DNA of 29,342 bases from an uncultured Eubacteriales bacterium. Its GTDB lineage: Bacteria; Bacillota; Clostridia; Christensenellales; Aristaeellaceae. The notes below the pieces were generated by a model, which was not told the DNA's origin, did not search any database, and saw only the letters and a list, made by a program, of their open reading frames with translations. The translations under genes and the position numbers were made by a program. Location of the stretch: contig UQEF01000028.1 of NCBI GenBank assembly GCA_900540045.1, forward strand, positions 1 to 29,342, in the 5' to 3' direction. Shown here one piece after another: positions 10,778 to 13,926 of the stretch; within the stretch, counting starts at the first letter, position 1; the number at the start of each line of letters is the position of its first letter.

Positions 10778-11492
10778 ATGCGCCAAAGCCGCCGCCCACC
10801 CCGATGACCTGCCCGGTCACAAAGGCCGCGTCCCCCTGGCACAGCCACAGGATAGCCGCGGCTACCTCCTGGGGTGTACCCAGGCGTCCCAGTGGGGTTT
10901 CTTCGGCCAGCGCTGCCAGGTCACGCCCGGTGAAGTCTCCCAGCATATCTGTCTGAATCACACCGGGACATACGCAGTTGACCGTCACGCCGCTGGGGCC
11001 GACCTCTTTGGCCAGTGCGCGCGTAAGGCCGATGAGCCCGGCCTTGGCCGCGGAATAATGCACCTCGCAGCTGGCTCCCACCTGCCCCCAGACGCTGGAT
11101 ACGTTGACAATGCTGCCGCTTTTTAGGCTGATCATGCCGGGAAGCACCGCGCGTGTCACGTAAAACGCCCCCGACAGGTTCACATCCAGCATGCGCCGCC
11201 AGTCCTCGTCGGTGATATCGGTCAGAAGCTTTTGCTGGGCGATGCCGGCATTGTTCACCAGCGCGTCGATGTGGCCCAGCGTTTTTTCGGCCTCGGCGCA
11301 CGCCTTGCGCACGCGGTCCGGGTCGCTTACATCGCAGCGGATGGCCGCCGCGCCCGTTTCACGCGCCACCGTCTGTGCCGCCGCCTCATCCGCCCGATAG
11401 AAAAACGCGGCGCGAAAGCCCGCGCGCGCAAACGCGCGCACCGCCGCCGCGCCGATGCCCCGGCTTCCGCCCGTGATGAGTGCCGTGCGCAC
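10776..11492 (-). CDS. Short-chain dehydrogenase/reductase (FabG-like)
   Basis: A 238-residue classical SDR. It has the NAD(P)-binding Thr-Gly-Gly-Ser-Arg-Gly-Ile-Gly at 7-14, Asn-Asn-Ala-Gly at 80-83, the catalytic Asn near 105, Ser132/133, and Tyr146-x3-Lys150. It resembles 3-oxoacyl-ACP reductases, but the lone context (no other fatty-acid genes) leaves the substrate open. Arg11 in the cofactor motif suits NADPH. The start is a GTG at 11492 with GAGGGGGA about 8 bases upstream. It follows corA after 12 bases and is probably co-transcribed with it. It ends inside the terminator of the convergent gene. Confidence 0.85.
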   Translation of the reverse strand: MRTALITGGSRGIGAAAVRAFARAGFRAAFFYRADEAAAQTVARETGAAAIRCDVSDPDRVRKACAEAEKTLGHIDALVNNAGIAQQKLLTDITDEDWRRMLDVNLSGAFYVTRAVLPGMISLKSGSIVNVSSVWGQVGASCEVHYSAAKAGLIGLTRALAKEVGPSGVTVNCVCPGVIQTDMLGDFTGRDLAALAEETPLGRLGTPQEVAAAILWLCQGDAAFVTGQVIGVGGGFGA

Positions 11493-11504: not shown

Positions 11505-12437
11505 TCAGAACATCTTCTTGCGCCACAAGAGCACGAACGCCGCCACGCTGGCCACCACCGAGATGCCCAGCACCATCCAGAATCCGAAGGGCGCGTTTTC
11601 AAAGGGCACGCCCACATTCATGCCCCACAGGGAGGCAAACAGCGTGGGGATGGACAAAACCACCGTCAGGCTGGTCAATACCTTCATGACGACGTTGAGG
11701 TTATTGGAAATGATGGAGGCGAACGCATCCATCGTGCCGGACATGATGTCGCGGTAGATGGCGCACATCTCCATGGCCTGCTTGTTTTCGATGATTACAT
11801 CCTCCAGCAGGTCGCTGTCATCGGGGTATTTGCGCAGCATGTCCATGCGCAGCATCTTTTCCAGCACCATCTCATTGCCCTTGAGGCTGGTGGAGAAGTA
11901 CACCAGGCTTTTTTCCAGCTTCATCATCTGCAGCAGCTCCTGGTTGCGCATGCTGGCCTCCAGGCGGGTCTGCACAAACATGCTGGCCTTGTCGATCTGC
12001 TTGAGGTAGGCCAGGAAGCGCGAGGCGTTGCGGTGCAAAAGCTGCAGAATGAAGCGCGTGCGCTTGAACGTCCAGAATCCGCGGATGCGCTCCTCGGTAA
12101 AGTCGGTGATGATGGTGGATTCACGGGTGGAGACGGTGATGATTACGTCATCCACCATGATGATGCCAAGCGGCACGGTGGTGTAGCTGTAGCCGTTGCC
12201 CTCGGCCTCCACATAGGGAATGTCCACGATGATGAGGGTCTGGTCGCCGTCGCGCTCGATGCGGGCGCTTTCCTCCTCGTCCAGCGCGGACTGGATATAG
12301 GTCGGGTCCAGCGCAAAACGCGCGTTGATGCCATCGATCTCCTCGCGCGTGGGATTTTGCAGATGGACCCAGCATCCCTTTTCAAAAGTATTGATTTCGT
12401 TGAGGTGGTCCTCCACCGTCAGATAGATCCGCTTCAT
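11505..12437 (-). CDS. corA: CorA-family magnesium/divalent cation channel
   Basis: A 310-residue CorA/MIT-family protein (PF01544). It has a soluble N-terminal domain, a long charged helix region (about 140-250), and two C-terminal membrane helices. The signature Gly-Met-Asn at 272-274 lies between the helices in the context Leu-Trp-Gly-Met-Asn-Val-Gly-Val-Pro. It forms a pentameric Mg2+ channel in the cytoplasmic membrane; some relatives prefer Co2+ or Zn2+. I chose the start at 12437 with GGCAGG 8 bases upstream. An in-frame ATG at 12494 has no ribosome site and would place the terminator-like hairpin inside the coding sequence. The gene is preceded by an unusual 210-base leader containing a small frame and competing RNA structures. 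Confidence 0.9.
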   Translation of the reverse strand: MKRIYLTVEDHLNEINTFEKGCWVHLQNPTREEIDGINARFALDPTYIQSALDEEESARIERDGDQTLIIVDIPYVEAEGNGYSYTTVPLGIIMVDDVIITVSTRESTIITDFTEERIRGFWTFKRTRFILQLLHRNASRFLAYLKQIDKASMFVQTRLEASMRNQELLQMMKLEKSLVYFSTSLKGNEMVLEKMLRMDMLRKYPDDSDLLEDVIIENKQAMEMCAIYRDIMSGTMDAFASIISNNLNVVMKVLTSLTVVLSIPTLFASLWGMNVGVPFENAPFGFWMVLGISVVASVAAFVLLWRKKMF

Positions 12438-12438
12438 C

Positions 12439-12489
12439 AAAAAAACCTGCCTTTCTGCGGCCGCCAAGGCGGCTTCGCTTCCGGGCAGG
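12439..12489 (-). terminator. Intrinsic terminator/attenuator hairpin covering the corA ribosome binding site
   Basis: On the minus strand CCTGCC (12484-12489) pairs with GGCAGG (12446-12451), enclosing an inner GC-rich hairpin (GCCGC/GCGGC extended by GCG/CGC with an AA bulge, about 12457-12478). Seven U follow at once (12439-12445). The U-run ends one base before the corA ATG. The same GGCAGG is the corA ribosome site, so the structure could stop both transcription and translation. Confidence 0.65.
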
Positions 12490-12546
12490 CGCATGCCTAT
12501 GCAGGCGCAATCTGCGCGTCAACGCGCGCCGCGCCTATCGCCCGGA
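12480..12546 (-). promoter_or_regulatory. Antiterminator pairing in the corA leader
   Basis: The upstream arm at 12531-12546 (minus strand TCCGGGC-gat-AGGCGC) is complementary to the downstream arm at 12480-12492 (GCGCCTGCCCGGA). Thirteen pairs form with only a three-base bulge. The downstream arm contains the left arm of the terminator, so the two structures exclude each other. A small hairpin (12514-12527) lies between the arms. Confidence 0.55.
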
Positions 12547-12610
12547 GCCTGTGAACCTGTGCCCATGGAAATGTCAAAACGTCGTTTCGACTATACGGGT
12601 CGGCATCCAC
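12497..12610 (-). CDS. Candidate 37-residue leader peptide upstream of corA
   Basis: A GTG at 12608-12610 has GGAGGAG six bases upstream and opens a 37-codon frame ending in TAG at 12497-12499. It begins Met-Asp-Ala-Asp-Pro-Tyr-Ser-Arg and ends Gln-Ile-Ala-Pro-Ala. It lies wholly within the corA leader, 40 bases after the predicted transcription start, and codons 22-27 form the upstream arm of the antiterminator. The acidic/Pro start resembles the ribosome-destabilising start of the enterobacterial MgtL leader. No homologue is known to me; the main evidence is the ribosome site and the position. ATG-TAG just upstream (12610-12615) is an alternative start-stop element. Confidence 0.4.
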   Translation of the reverse strand: MDADPYSRNDVLTFPWAQVHRLRAIGAARVDAQIAPA

Positions 12611-12657
12611 TACATGCTCCTCCTTCCGGCGGATAAGCGCCTTTTGTTCCGATTCCC

Positions 12658-12686
12658 ATGATAGCGGTTTTGCAGGGCCGTGTCAA
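12658..12686 (-). promoter_or_regulatory. Strong sigma-A promoter of the corA leader
   Basis: On the minus strand a perfect TTGACA (12681-12686) is followed after exactly 17 bases by TATCAT (12658-12663), five of six matches. A-tracts just upstream (12692-12716) resemble an UP element. Transcription would begin near 12650, about 210 bases before corA. Confidence 0.8.
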
Positions 12687-12744
12687 TCAGGTTTTTCGCA
12701 AGATTTTTGGTTTTTTCCCCGCCGGGGCACGCCGTGCTTCCCCT

Positions 12745-12767
12745 TGCCCACGCGGGCATGATATAAT
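12745..12767 (+). promoter_or_regulatory. Extended -10 promoter of ispG with an overlapping dyad
   Basis: TATAAT (12762-12767) is preceded by TG at 12759-12760. No good -35 is present. The inverted repeat TGCCC-ACGC-GGGCA (12745-12758) sits where the -35/spacer would be and could be an operator. The start codon follows after 49 bases. Confidence 0.6.
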
Positions 12768-12816
12768 GAAGGCGTACCCACACCCGATAGCCCAGGTATT
12801 GAGGAGGTATATCCCC

Positions 12817-13926
12817 ATGCGCAACACCCGCTCCTTTTTCATCGGCCCGCTTCCCATCGGCGGCGGCGCGCCCGTCACCGTGCAGAGCATGACCAACACC
12901 GATACCCGCGATGCCGCAGCCACCCTTTCCCAGGTGCGCGCCCTGGCCCAGGCCGGATGCGACATCGTGCGCCTGAGCGTGTACGACGAGCAGTGCCTGG
13001 AGGCGCTGCCCACCATCATCGAAGGGTCTCCCGTGCCGCTGGTGGCGGATATCCACTACCGGGCCGACCTGGCCGTGGGAGCCATGGAGCGCGGCATCGC
13101 CAAGGTGCGCATCAACCCCGGCAACATCGGCAGCGTGCGCGAGGTGCGGCGTGTGGCGGACTGCGCCAAAATGCACCATGTGCCCATCCGCATCGGCGTC
13201 AATTCCGGCAGCGTGGAAAAGGAGATTCTGGCCCAGGAGGGCGGCGTGACGGCGCGCGGCATGCTCAGAAGCGCGCTGGGACACGCCCGGCTTCTGGAGG
13301 AGGCGGGGTTTCACGACATCGTGCTCAGCCTCAAGGCTTCCAGCGTACCCCTGACCGTGGAGGCCTACCGCCTGGCCGCAAAGGAAACCGACTATCCCCT
13401 GCACGTGGGCGTGACCGAAGCCGGCCTGCCCGGCGCGGGCAATATCAAAAGCGCCATCGGCATCGGCGCGCTGCTTCTGGACGGTATTGGGGACACCATC
13501 CGTGTGTCTCTCACCGGCAGTCCCATCCCGGAAGCTGCCGCCGCCATCGACATTTTGCGCGCAGTGGGCCTGCGCACGGGCTATGTCAACGTGGTCAGCT
13601 GCCCCACCTGCGGCCGTACCGGCATCGACGTGGCCGCCATCGCCCGACGGGTGGAAAGCGAGCTTGCGGACATCCGCGTGCCCTTGACCGTGGCTGTGAT
13701 GGGCTGCGTGGTCAATGGCCCCGGCGAGGCGCGCGAGGCGGACATCGGCCTGGCAGGCGGCGGGCTCAGCCGTGCAGGCGGCTCGGCCGGCGGCGAGGGC
13801 AGTTCCTACGCCGTGGGCGCGATCTTTGAAAAGGGCAAGGCCCCGGAGAAGGTCGAGGGGGATCTGGCCGCCATTCTGATCGAGCGGGCGCGCAGGCTGG
13901 CCCAGGAACGGGCCGCACAGGCGTAA
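12817..13926 (+). CDS. ispG: 4-hydroxy-3-methylbut-2-enyl diphosphate synthase (flavodoxin/ferredoxin-dependent)
   Basis: A 369-residue IspG/GcpE, the penultimate enzyme of the MEP isoprenoid pathway, a cytosolic [4Fe-4S] enzyme that converts MEcPP to HMBPP. The N-terminal TIM-barrel part has Val-Gln-Ser-Met-Thr-Asn-Thr-Asp-Thr and Ala-Asp-Ile-His-Tyr. It also has Val-Arg-Ile-Asn-Pro-Gly-Asn-Ile-Gly. The C-terminal cluster domain has Ser-Cys-Pro-Thr-Cys-Gly-Arg-Thr and Gly-Cys-Val-Val-Asn-Gly-Pro-Gly-Glu. The start at 12817 has GAGGAGG nine bases upstream; a longer open frame back to 12658 overlaps the promoter. A strong terminator follows, so it is monocistronic here, although in many Clostridia it is directly joined to rseP upstream and polC downstream. 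Confidence 0.95.
   Translation: MRNTRSFFIGPLPIGGGAPVTVQSMTNTDTRDAAATLSQVRALAQAGCDIVRLSVYDEQCLEALPTIIEGSPVPLVADIHYRADLAVGAMERGIAKVRINPGNIGSVREVRRVADCAKMHHVPIRIGVNSGSVEKEILAQEGGVTARGMLRSALGHARLLEEAGFHDIVLSLKASSVPLTVEAYRLAAKETDYPLHVGVTEAGLPGAGNIKSAIGIGALLLDGIGDTIRVSLTGSPIPEAAAAIDILRAVGLRTGYVNVVSCPTCGRTGIDVAAIARRVESELADIRVPLTVAVMGCVVNGPGEAREADIGLAGGGLSRAGGSAGGEGSSYAVGAIFEKGKAPEKVEGDLAAILIERARRLAQERAAQA

Follow-up and report, generated by a model that had tools for sequence, protein, structure and literature searches.

The corA gene in the window, by which we mean the whole 29,342-nucleotide stretch of DNA analysed here, is preceded by a leader that we read as an attenuator in which the ribosome is the sensor and a Mg2+ importer the target, comparable in mechanism to MgtL but found in Bacillota, and to this reading we assign a probability of about 0.78. 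The leader consists of a small reading frame followed by a set of pairing arms; it is conserved in relatives of the window, its arms co-vary, and it is associated with Mg2+-transport genes. The interpretation given in the initial annotation, which was that of a Mg2+-linked leader-peptide attenuator of corA, is thereby supported.

Short ORFs that open with the same residues in the same register were identified before several Mg2+ transporter families in Bacillota, and their RNA arms co-vary. If our reading is correct, ribosome destabilisation would be a general and probably repeatedly evolved Mg2+ sensor, and possible control of Mg2+ uptake in lineages without an M-box would be accounted for. 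A sequence rule, namely a short ORF of the type SD-M[DE]x[DE]P, could then be used to find Mg2+ transporters, among them a candidate ABC system, and the question of what the ribosome senses would become testable in a Gram-positive model.

Organization of the corA leader

All features of the leader are located on the minus strand. The corA gene (11505..12437, with the ATG at 12437) encodes a protein of 310 amino acids with a match to PF01544 (1.5e-55), which is 100% identical to the CorA proteins of the closest relatives found, Candidatus Limiplasma pullicola (L001) and an uncultured Eubacteriales bin (L002). A sigma-70-type promoter was identified at 12658..12686, in which TTGACA (12686-12681) and TATCAT (12663-12658) are separated by a 17-nt spacer; it was the one promoter-like site returned by a promoter scan of 12300-12900, as compared with 0.2 in shuffled sequences. 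The Shine-Dalgarno (SD) sequence GGAGGAG (12617..12623) precedes a leader-peptide ORF (uORF) of 37 codons, VDADPYSRNDVLTFPWAQVHRLRAIGAARVDAQIAPA (12497..12610), which has a GTG start at 12610. The first 7 residues are MDADPYS (12590..12610), with acidic residues at positions 2 and 4, Pro at position 5 and the codon AGT (12592-12590) at position 7. We found no Pfam or NCBIfam family for the leader peptide.

The leader contains 4 regions with the potential to pair. Region 1 is the SD sequence of the uORF, which is complementary to GCTCC of region 2, arm A. Arm A is located within the uORF (12531..12548, codons 21-27) and has the core GCTCCGGGC at 12548-12540, extended to 12531. Region 3, arm B (12477..12492), includes both GCCCGGAAGC (12486-12477), which pairs with A, and CCTGCC (12489-12484), which pairs with C. 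Region 4, arm C (12439..12451), consists of GGCAGG (12451-12446) and U7 (12445-12439), and overlaps the likely corA ribosome site AAAGG (12454-12450). The uORF VDADPYSRNDVLTFPWAQVHRLRAIGAARVDAQIAPA is followed on its 3' side by CCTGCCCGGAAGC, the inner hairpin of the terminator stem (12460..12473), the sequence of which turns over between species, GGCAGG, U7, a single G and the corA ATG at 12437. The promoter, the SD sequence with the 37-codon GTG-initiated uORF and the two mutually exclusive pairings had all been described in the initial annotation, and each was recovered at the same minus-strand position. Features that go beyond it are the participation of the uORF SD sequence in pairing, which makes it a fourth region, the invariant AGT at codon 7, the range of transporter families involved and the existence of leaders that resemble SD sequestration instead of a terminator.

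An alternative corA start at the in-frame ATG 12494 was considered and rejected. The start at 12437 was preferred because relatives such as L082, L091 and L155 have zero in-frame start codons from the uORF to the Met that matches 12437; inspection by eye also showed no SD sequence ahead of ATG 12494. A start at 12494 would add 19 codons to corA and reach into the attenuator, and automatic annotation may choose it. It was also noted that a short-chain dehydrogenase gene (10779-11492) is located on the same strand directly downstream of corA, and that L083 and L086 have a similar ORF after corA.

Taken alone, the window gave no significant result in the shuffle tests for the A:B duplex (z -1.18, p 0.109), the B:C hairpin (z -1.18, p 0.149) or the pairing of the SD sequence with the late uORF (z -0.79, p 0.199), and the whole-leader fold (z -0.86) was equalled by 44 of 200 shuffles. 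A consensus terminator scan yielded 0 matches, probably because the stem, in which CCTGCC/GGCAGG and U7 are present and which is conserved, contains internal loops. Judged by sequence comparison, the features of the leader are far beyond chance across the relatives, though weak in the single window.

Conservation of the leader peptide

The conservation of the uORF was examined in 80 corA loci fetched by CorA homology, which were the best 80 of the 118 found. An SD-preceded uORF with the start M[DE]x[DE]P at most 450 nt from corA was present in 36 of these best 80 loci and absent by the same test in 44, and all 19 loci with a CorA protein at least 71% identical contained it; one further corA locus, L021, has the start MDAGP. 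No such uORF was obtained in 30 rounds of dinucleotide-shuffled upstream sequences or ahead of any of the 612 other ORFs in the same loci that encode 150 or more amino acids, and 36/80 versus 0/612 are the unbiased figures for the uORF. The Met-Asp-x-Asp-Pro small frame that the initial annotation expected to find in related genomes is thus conserved, and the uORF, with its SD sequence and GTG start in the window, can be taken as a short, putatively translated frame within the 5' leader of the Mg2+ transporter gene corA. A start pattern was matched in 15 of the 17 genomes searched in the genus of L001, and an order-wide search with the tight pattern MDADPY gave matches in only 6 of 297 genomes.

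To describe the peptide we used a set of 64 leaders, consisting of the window, 37 CorA-homology loci and 26 loci found by pattern. The homology loci had been retained if residues 2-5 of the start fitted [DE][AGTSVIP][DG]P, and the patterns behind the other 26 fix D2, D4 and P5 and restrict residue 3, in addition to Tyr6 and the AG of codon 7 for L139-L143, and part of codon 6 for L170-L172, L176 and L177. The conservation of residues 2-5 within the set is therefore partly by construction, because the selection fixes those residues, and with this limit residue 2 was D in 59 and E in 3 of the 62 distinct leaders, D4 was found in 61 and P5 in all 62. Residue 3 was mostly Ala or Gly, residue 6 was Y in 30 and G in 20, residue 7 was S in 45, and the consensus ended after codon 8. 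The codons used for D2, D4 and P5 vary, and it is therefore the peptide that is kept. Acidic residues 2 and 4 together with Pro 5 of the nascent chain correspond to the register described for MgtL in excerpts of PMC11282234. Upstream of the uORF, the best promoter-like pair had a 17-nt spacer in 49 of the 64 leaders, when spacers of only 16 to 18 nt were tried.

The codon for Ser7 was AGT in 45 of the 45 distinct leaders with this residue. Codon 7 is free in the 36 distinct CorA-homology leaders, the window included, and here Ser7 was found in 29, with AGT in 29/29. AGT is a rare codon, with 5 uses as compared with 118 for AGC in seven ORFs of the window. No conserved pairing partner for the AGT codon was apparent by eye in the leader listing; our guess is that the codon might be read slowly just where the ribosome is unstable.

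Pairing between the regions of the leader

In each of the 20 genus-type leaders arm A is located within the uORF, and it starts between codons 12 and 23, after the MDxDP codons. For the covariation and ensemble tests the arms were anchored by hand, in 20 and 19 genus-type leaders, respectively. Arms A and B change together between leaders, as seen in the partner sequences CTCCGGGC/GCCCGG, CTCCGAG/CTCGG, CTCCAAGC/GCTTTGG, CTCCGGAC/GTCCGG and TTCCAGGC/GCCTGAA.

In swap tests, which may profit from base composition common to one genome, the hand-anchored arms of 10 distinct A/B types paired better with their own partner than with swapped ones (-17.8 versus -13.5 kcal/mol, p 5e-5), as did the A and B regions of 56 leaders without hand-chosen arms (-35.5 versus -28.5, p 0.0002) and the SD sequence with the late uORF of 62 leaders (-15.5 versus -12.2 kcal/mol, p 1e-4). 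In the shuffle tests, the z-scores of which are free of that effect but weaker, the mean z was -1.53 for A:B (p<=0.05 in 23/56 leaders), -2.32 for the hairpin (p<=0.05 in 34/56) and -1.6 for the SD sequence with the late uORF (p<=0.05 in 23/62); single folds often fell short of significance, for example those of A:B in L074, L075, L079 and L111. The pairings proposed for the window are thus conserved across the corA leaders, as the initial annotation had predicted, with co-variation between A and B. Since the SD sequence pairs with the late uORF, we read the leader as a four-region switch, SD:A, A:B and B:C.

The outer B:C stem hardly varies and shows no co-variation (swap p 0.30), and the swap test is uninformative for this reason; the sequence of its inner hairpin changes freely among the leaders. 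In L012-L016 the hairpin apparently, as judged by eye, buries the corA ribosome site in place of the U-run, and in some corA leaders (such as L122, L125 and L127-L130) the uORF ends on or beside this site. The anatomy suggests that the leader acts through a terminator-like hairpin with U7 or through SD sequestration, and not through Rho-dependent termination.

Ensemble folding of the window predicted A:B at 0.95 for a nascent transcript ending after B, and B:C at 0.98 when a ribosome-sized mask was placed on A, in agreement with the polarity that had been proposed. Nascent A:B was above 0.5 in 13 and below 0.5 in 6 of 19 leaders, and masked B:C was above 0.5 in 16 of 19, with lower values in L001 (0.04, a clear exception), L005 (0.32) and L176 (0.42). 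Finished full leaders favour B:C at equilibrium (mean 0.72, window 0.51), and the ON state must therefore be kinetic, reached during transcription. Mutually exclusive folds with one arm inside the uORF are accordingly predicted for the leader by comparison with relatives; the folds of the window alone were not significant.

A model for the regulation of corA

By analogy with the enterobacterial leaders we infer that Mg2+ is the signal, ribosome drop-off the event and termination the output. Transcription would probably start about 40 nt before the uORF, and ribosomes would load on GGAGGAG and begin to synthesize MDADPYS. At low cytosolic Mg2+ the ribosome would become unstable on the acidic-Pro start (D2, D4, P5) and drop off or pause, while loading ribosomes would keep region 1, the uORF SD sequence, occupied; arm A would stay free and pair with B, which would block the terminator or SD-sequestering hairpin B:C (3:4), so that corA would be transcribed and translated. 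At ample Mg2+ the ribosome would run on and cover A, B would pair with C, transcription would end at U7 and the corA ribosome site would be buried. Without any ribosome, SD:A (1:2) would likewise let B:C form.

The same switch could operate, and this overlaps with our reading, if the ribosome instead stalled stably on MDxDPYS as on an arrest peptide, possibly aided by the rare AGU codon 7, with Mg2+ or another elongation stress as the signal; we consider this possible but rather doubtful. The use of AGT at 45/45 Ser7 codons, given the 5 AGT and 118 AGC in seven window ORFs, speaks for such a stall, and because in none of the 20 leaders does arm A start before codon 12, the geometry would give the same output. 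The leader peptides are, however, without consensus after codon 8, which is unlike known arrest peptides. Acidic residues pause ribosomes, and EttA relieves the pausing, according to excerpts of PMC11282234, but MgtL with its EPDP sequence, the closest precedent, works by drop-off in the account given there.

It is quite unlikely that the uORF serves only to have the corA leader translated and that the hairpin, as a plain constitutive attenuator or a hairpin at the ribosome site, responds to no signal. The unremarkable folds of the window alone would fit this explanation, but residue conservation is limited to about codons 1-8 and the interior of the uORF co-varies with a downstream arm.

Comparison with known leader systems

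Ribosome drop-off remains our preferred event, and the leader would work like MgtL, the likeness being one of mechanism and residue register, and would be new for Bacillota. To our knowledge, Mg2+ sensing by a ribosome-destabilising acidic-Pro nascent chain is known from enterobacterial leaders only; the paper on this intrinsic ribosome destabilization (IRD) is reportedly that of Chadani et al. 2017. We found no Bacillota MDxDP leader among openly licensed PMC papers, an absence that is provisional.

In E. coli, the drop-off motif EPDP occupies residues 2-5 of MgtL, and drop-off at low Mg2+ turns mgtA on, as reported in the sections of PMC11282234 on which we rely. Translation of the uORF represses mgtA, and early drop-off activates it through alternative RNA folds (PMC11282234, in part). 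With Glu2 changed to Gln and Asp4 to Asn, the mgtL fusion rose to the wild-type level in an ettA deletion and the mgtA fusion was undetected in the same excerpts (PMC11282234). The MgtL leader of mgtA in Escherichia coli and Salmonella, with its IRD, shares with the leaders described here a uORF before a Mg2+ transporter gene, an acidic residue 2, Asp4 and Pro5. It differs in that position 3 is Pro, whereas here it is mostly Ala or Gly, in that it belongs to another phylum, and in that it contains a Rho site where we find a terminator-like hairpin or SD sequestration. In contrast to MgtL, the uORF SD sequence is here a pairing arm, and several transporter families are involved.

CorL of E. coli and Salmonella is likewise encoded by a uORF before corA, and in E. 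coli the expression levels of corL and corA are inverse to each other and depend on Mg2+ (PMC11552253, in part). In E. coli, loss of the corL start codon leads to the ON state (PMC11552253, in part). CorL differs from our leaders in being Rho-dependent, in its UUG start and in having fewer acidic or Pro residues, and an IRD is uncertain for this last reason, according to the portion of PMC11552253 on which we rely.

The uORF mgtQ, located between mgtC and mgtB in Salmonella, encodes Asp2, Pro4 and Glu5, and its acidic residues are needed (PMC8092293, in part). It shares with the corA leader the stems 1:2, 2:3 and 3:4, of which 3:4 buries the mgtB ribosome site, but it occupies an intergenic position within an operon, the effect of its Pro codon comes from base pairing and not from the residue, and its ON state depends on disruption of 1:2 (excerpts of PMC8092293).

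The motif ahead of other Mg2+ transporter genes

Searches with the motif only, at the levels of class, family and phylum, identified 42 short uORFs, of which 25 precede corA, mgtE or PRC-MgtE_N-CBS genes (12/18, 5/11 and 8/13, respectively), where the classification covered only newly fetched loci, at 26, 22 and 28 distinct places, and not every match, earlier-fetched corA and CNNM leaders were not recounted, and several classified loci are close relatives of each other. The other 17 of the 42 had no Mg2+ gene behind them, and some of these were inside genes. Outside the 42, the motif frame in L208 overlaps the mgtE gene behind it. In L197 the PRC-MgtE_N-CBS gene is followed by a Pfam Nramp gene, an arrangement like that of the mgtE-nramp operons of NrmT Mg2+ transporters reported in part of PMC4072509.

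A second leader, with the SD sequence GGAGTGTGATNTCGCC and the start VDGDP[GA], was identified before a CNNM/CorC-like gene in six relatives of the window (L195, L090, L104, L106, L087 and L196, from genomes G001-G005 and G007), with the CNNM assignment checked against Pfam in L104 only. The stop of this uORF is next to the ribosome site of the CNNM gene in L195, L104 and L106, but not in L087 or L196. Furthermore, three CNNM-like proteins (L113:239, L164 and L165) have M/VDADPL as their own N-terminus behind a good SD sequence and are candidate self-regulating Mg2+ exporters. These starts resemble that of CorC/YbeX, a CorC-domain protein with a ribosome-destabilising N-terminal IRD, for which, as for YoaL-mgpA, higher expression is expected at high Mg2+ (PMC12421838, in part); those two systems are enterobacterial, whereas the CNNM counterpart is known from sequence alone. 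A polarity opposite to that of corA is suggested for the CNNM genes, either by the position of the uORF stop in L195, L104 and L106 or by the place of the motif at the very start of the protein itself, which has also been described for CorC/YbeX in the excerpt of PMC12421838.

We put at about even odds a wider scheme in which one MDxDP nascent-peptide sensor reads a Bacillota-wide Mg2+ regulon. In this scheme importers (CorA, MgtE, MgtE_N-CBS/Nramp) would be ON at low Mg2+, CNNM/CorC exporters would be ON at high Mg2+, through MDxDP either as their own N-terminus or in a uORF whose stop is located, in some loci, on their ribosome site, and the sensor would replace the M-box in some lineages, act in tandem with it in others, and point to a new Mg2+ ABC transporter (L228, L229).

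Relation to the M-box

The M-box (ykoK, RF00380) controls corA, mgtE, mgtA and NrmT genes (PMC4072509, in part), and differs from the leaders described here in being an aptamer without a peptide. We identified M-boxes directly before MDxDP uORFs in 6 loci, L228, L229, L230, L210 and L231, at distances of about 57-116 nt, and L252, and 0 in the window; each of these tandems would combine two Mg2+ sensors in one leader. An M-box before a small uORF has been reported in Mycobacterium, and the relevant excerpt of PMC12810186 gives no MDxDP-type motif. Gene identity and the tandem M-boxes thus point to Mg2+ independently, and the Mg2+ link is strengthened because motif-only matches precede mgtE, MgtE_N-CBS and CNNM genes, as well as by the tandems.

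The M-box survey covered 42 M-boxes in 38 genomes, and of the 30 loci fetched and inspected only 3 carried the uORF. The RF00380 search, for which Bacillus subtilis and Lactococcus lactis served as positive controls, gave no M-box in any of the 19 genomes that carry the corA leader, an absence that falls short of proof as genome completeness is not given. Genome G281 has the leader before a PRC-MgtE_N-CBS gene and an M-box elsewhere in the genome, and G744, with the corA leader L222, has a weak M-box of 44.1 bits.

That the RNA itself binds Mg2+ as a riboswitch, with the uORF secondary, would suit the Mg2+ genes downstream and the M-boxes found in tandem with the uORF elsewhere, yet we regard it as scarcely likely. 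The window contained 0 tRNA genes and 0 Rfam families at gathering score, M-box RF00380 included, the leader sequences and the uORF-to-corA distances (86-192 nt) vary widely, and inspection by eye showed no shared aptamer-like core apart from the SD sequence, the MDxDP codons and the complementary arms. Classical amino-acid attenuation, in which scarcity of Asp- or Pro-tRNA would stall the ribosome at the two Asp codons and one Pro codon near the uORF start, is very improbable, given that there are just 3 such codons, that Glu replaces Asp at position 2 in 3/62 leaders, that the genes behind the motif encode Mg2+ transporters of several families, that M-boxes occur in tandem with the motif, and that the peptides read contain no run of codons for an amino acid made by the operon, as in attenuators of the trp kind.

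In L228 and L229 (genomes G736 and G779) the M-box and a 63-codon MDxDP uORF precede a gene for a binding-protein-dependent ABC permease of 575-576 amino acids and an ORF that by eye resembles an ABC ATPase. PF00528 was matched in a 430-amino-acid piece (L207), and the ABC pair of L228 and L229 is a candidate for a new Mg2+ importer. It was also noted that c-di-GMP-II riboswitches are located on the opposite strand near the ABC and mgtE leaders (L228:6604-6687 and L210:1719-1801).
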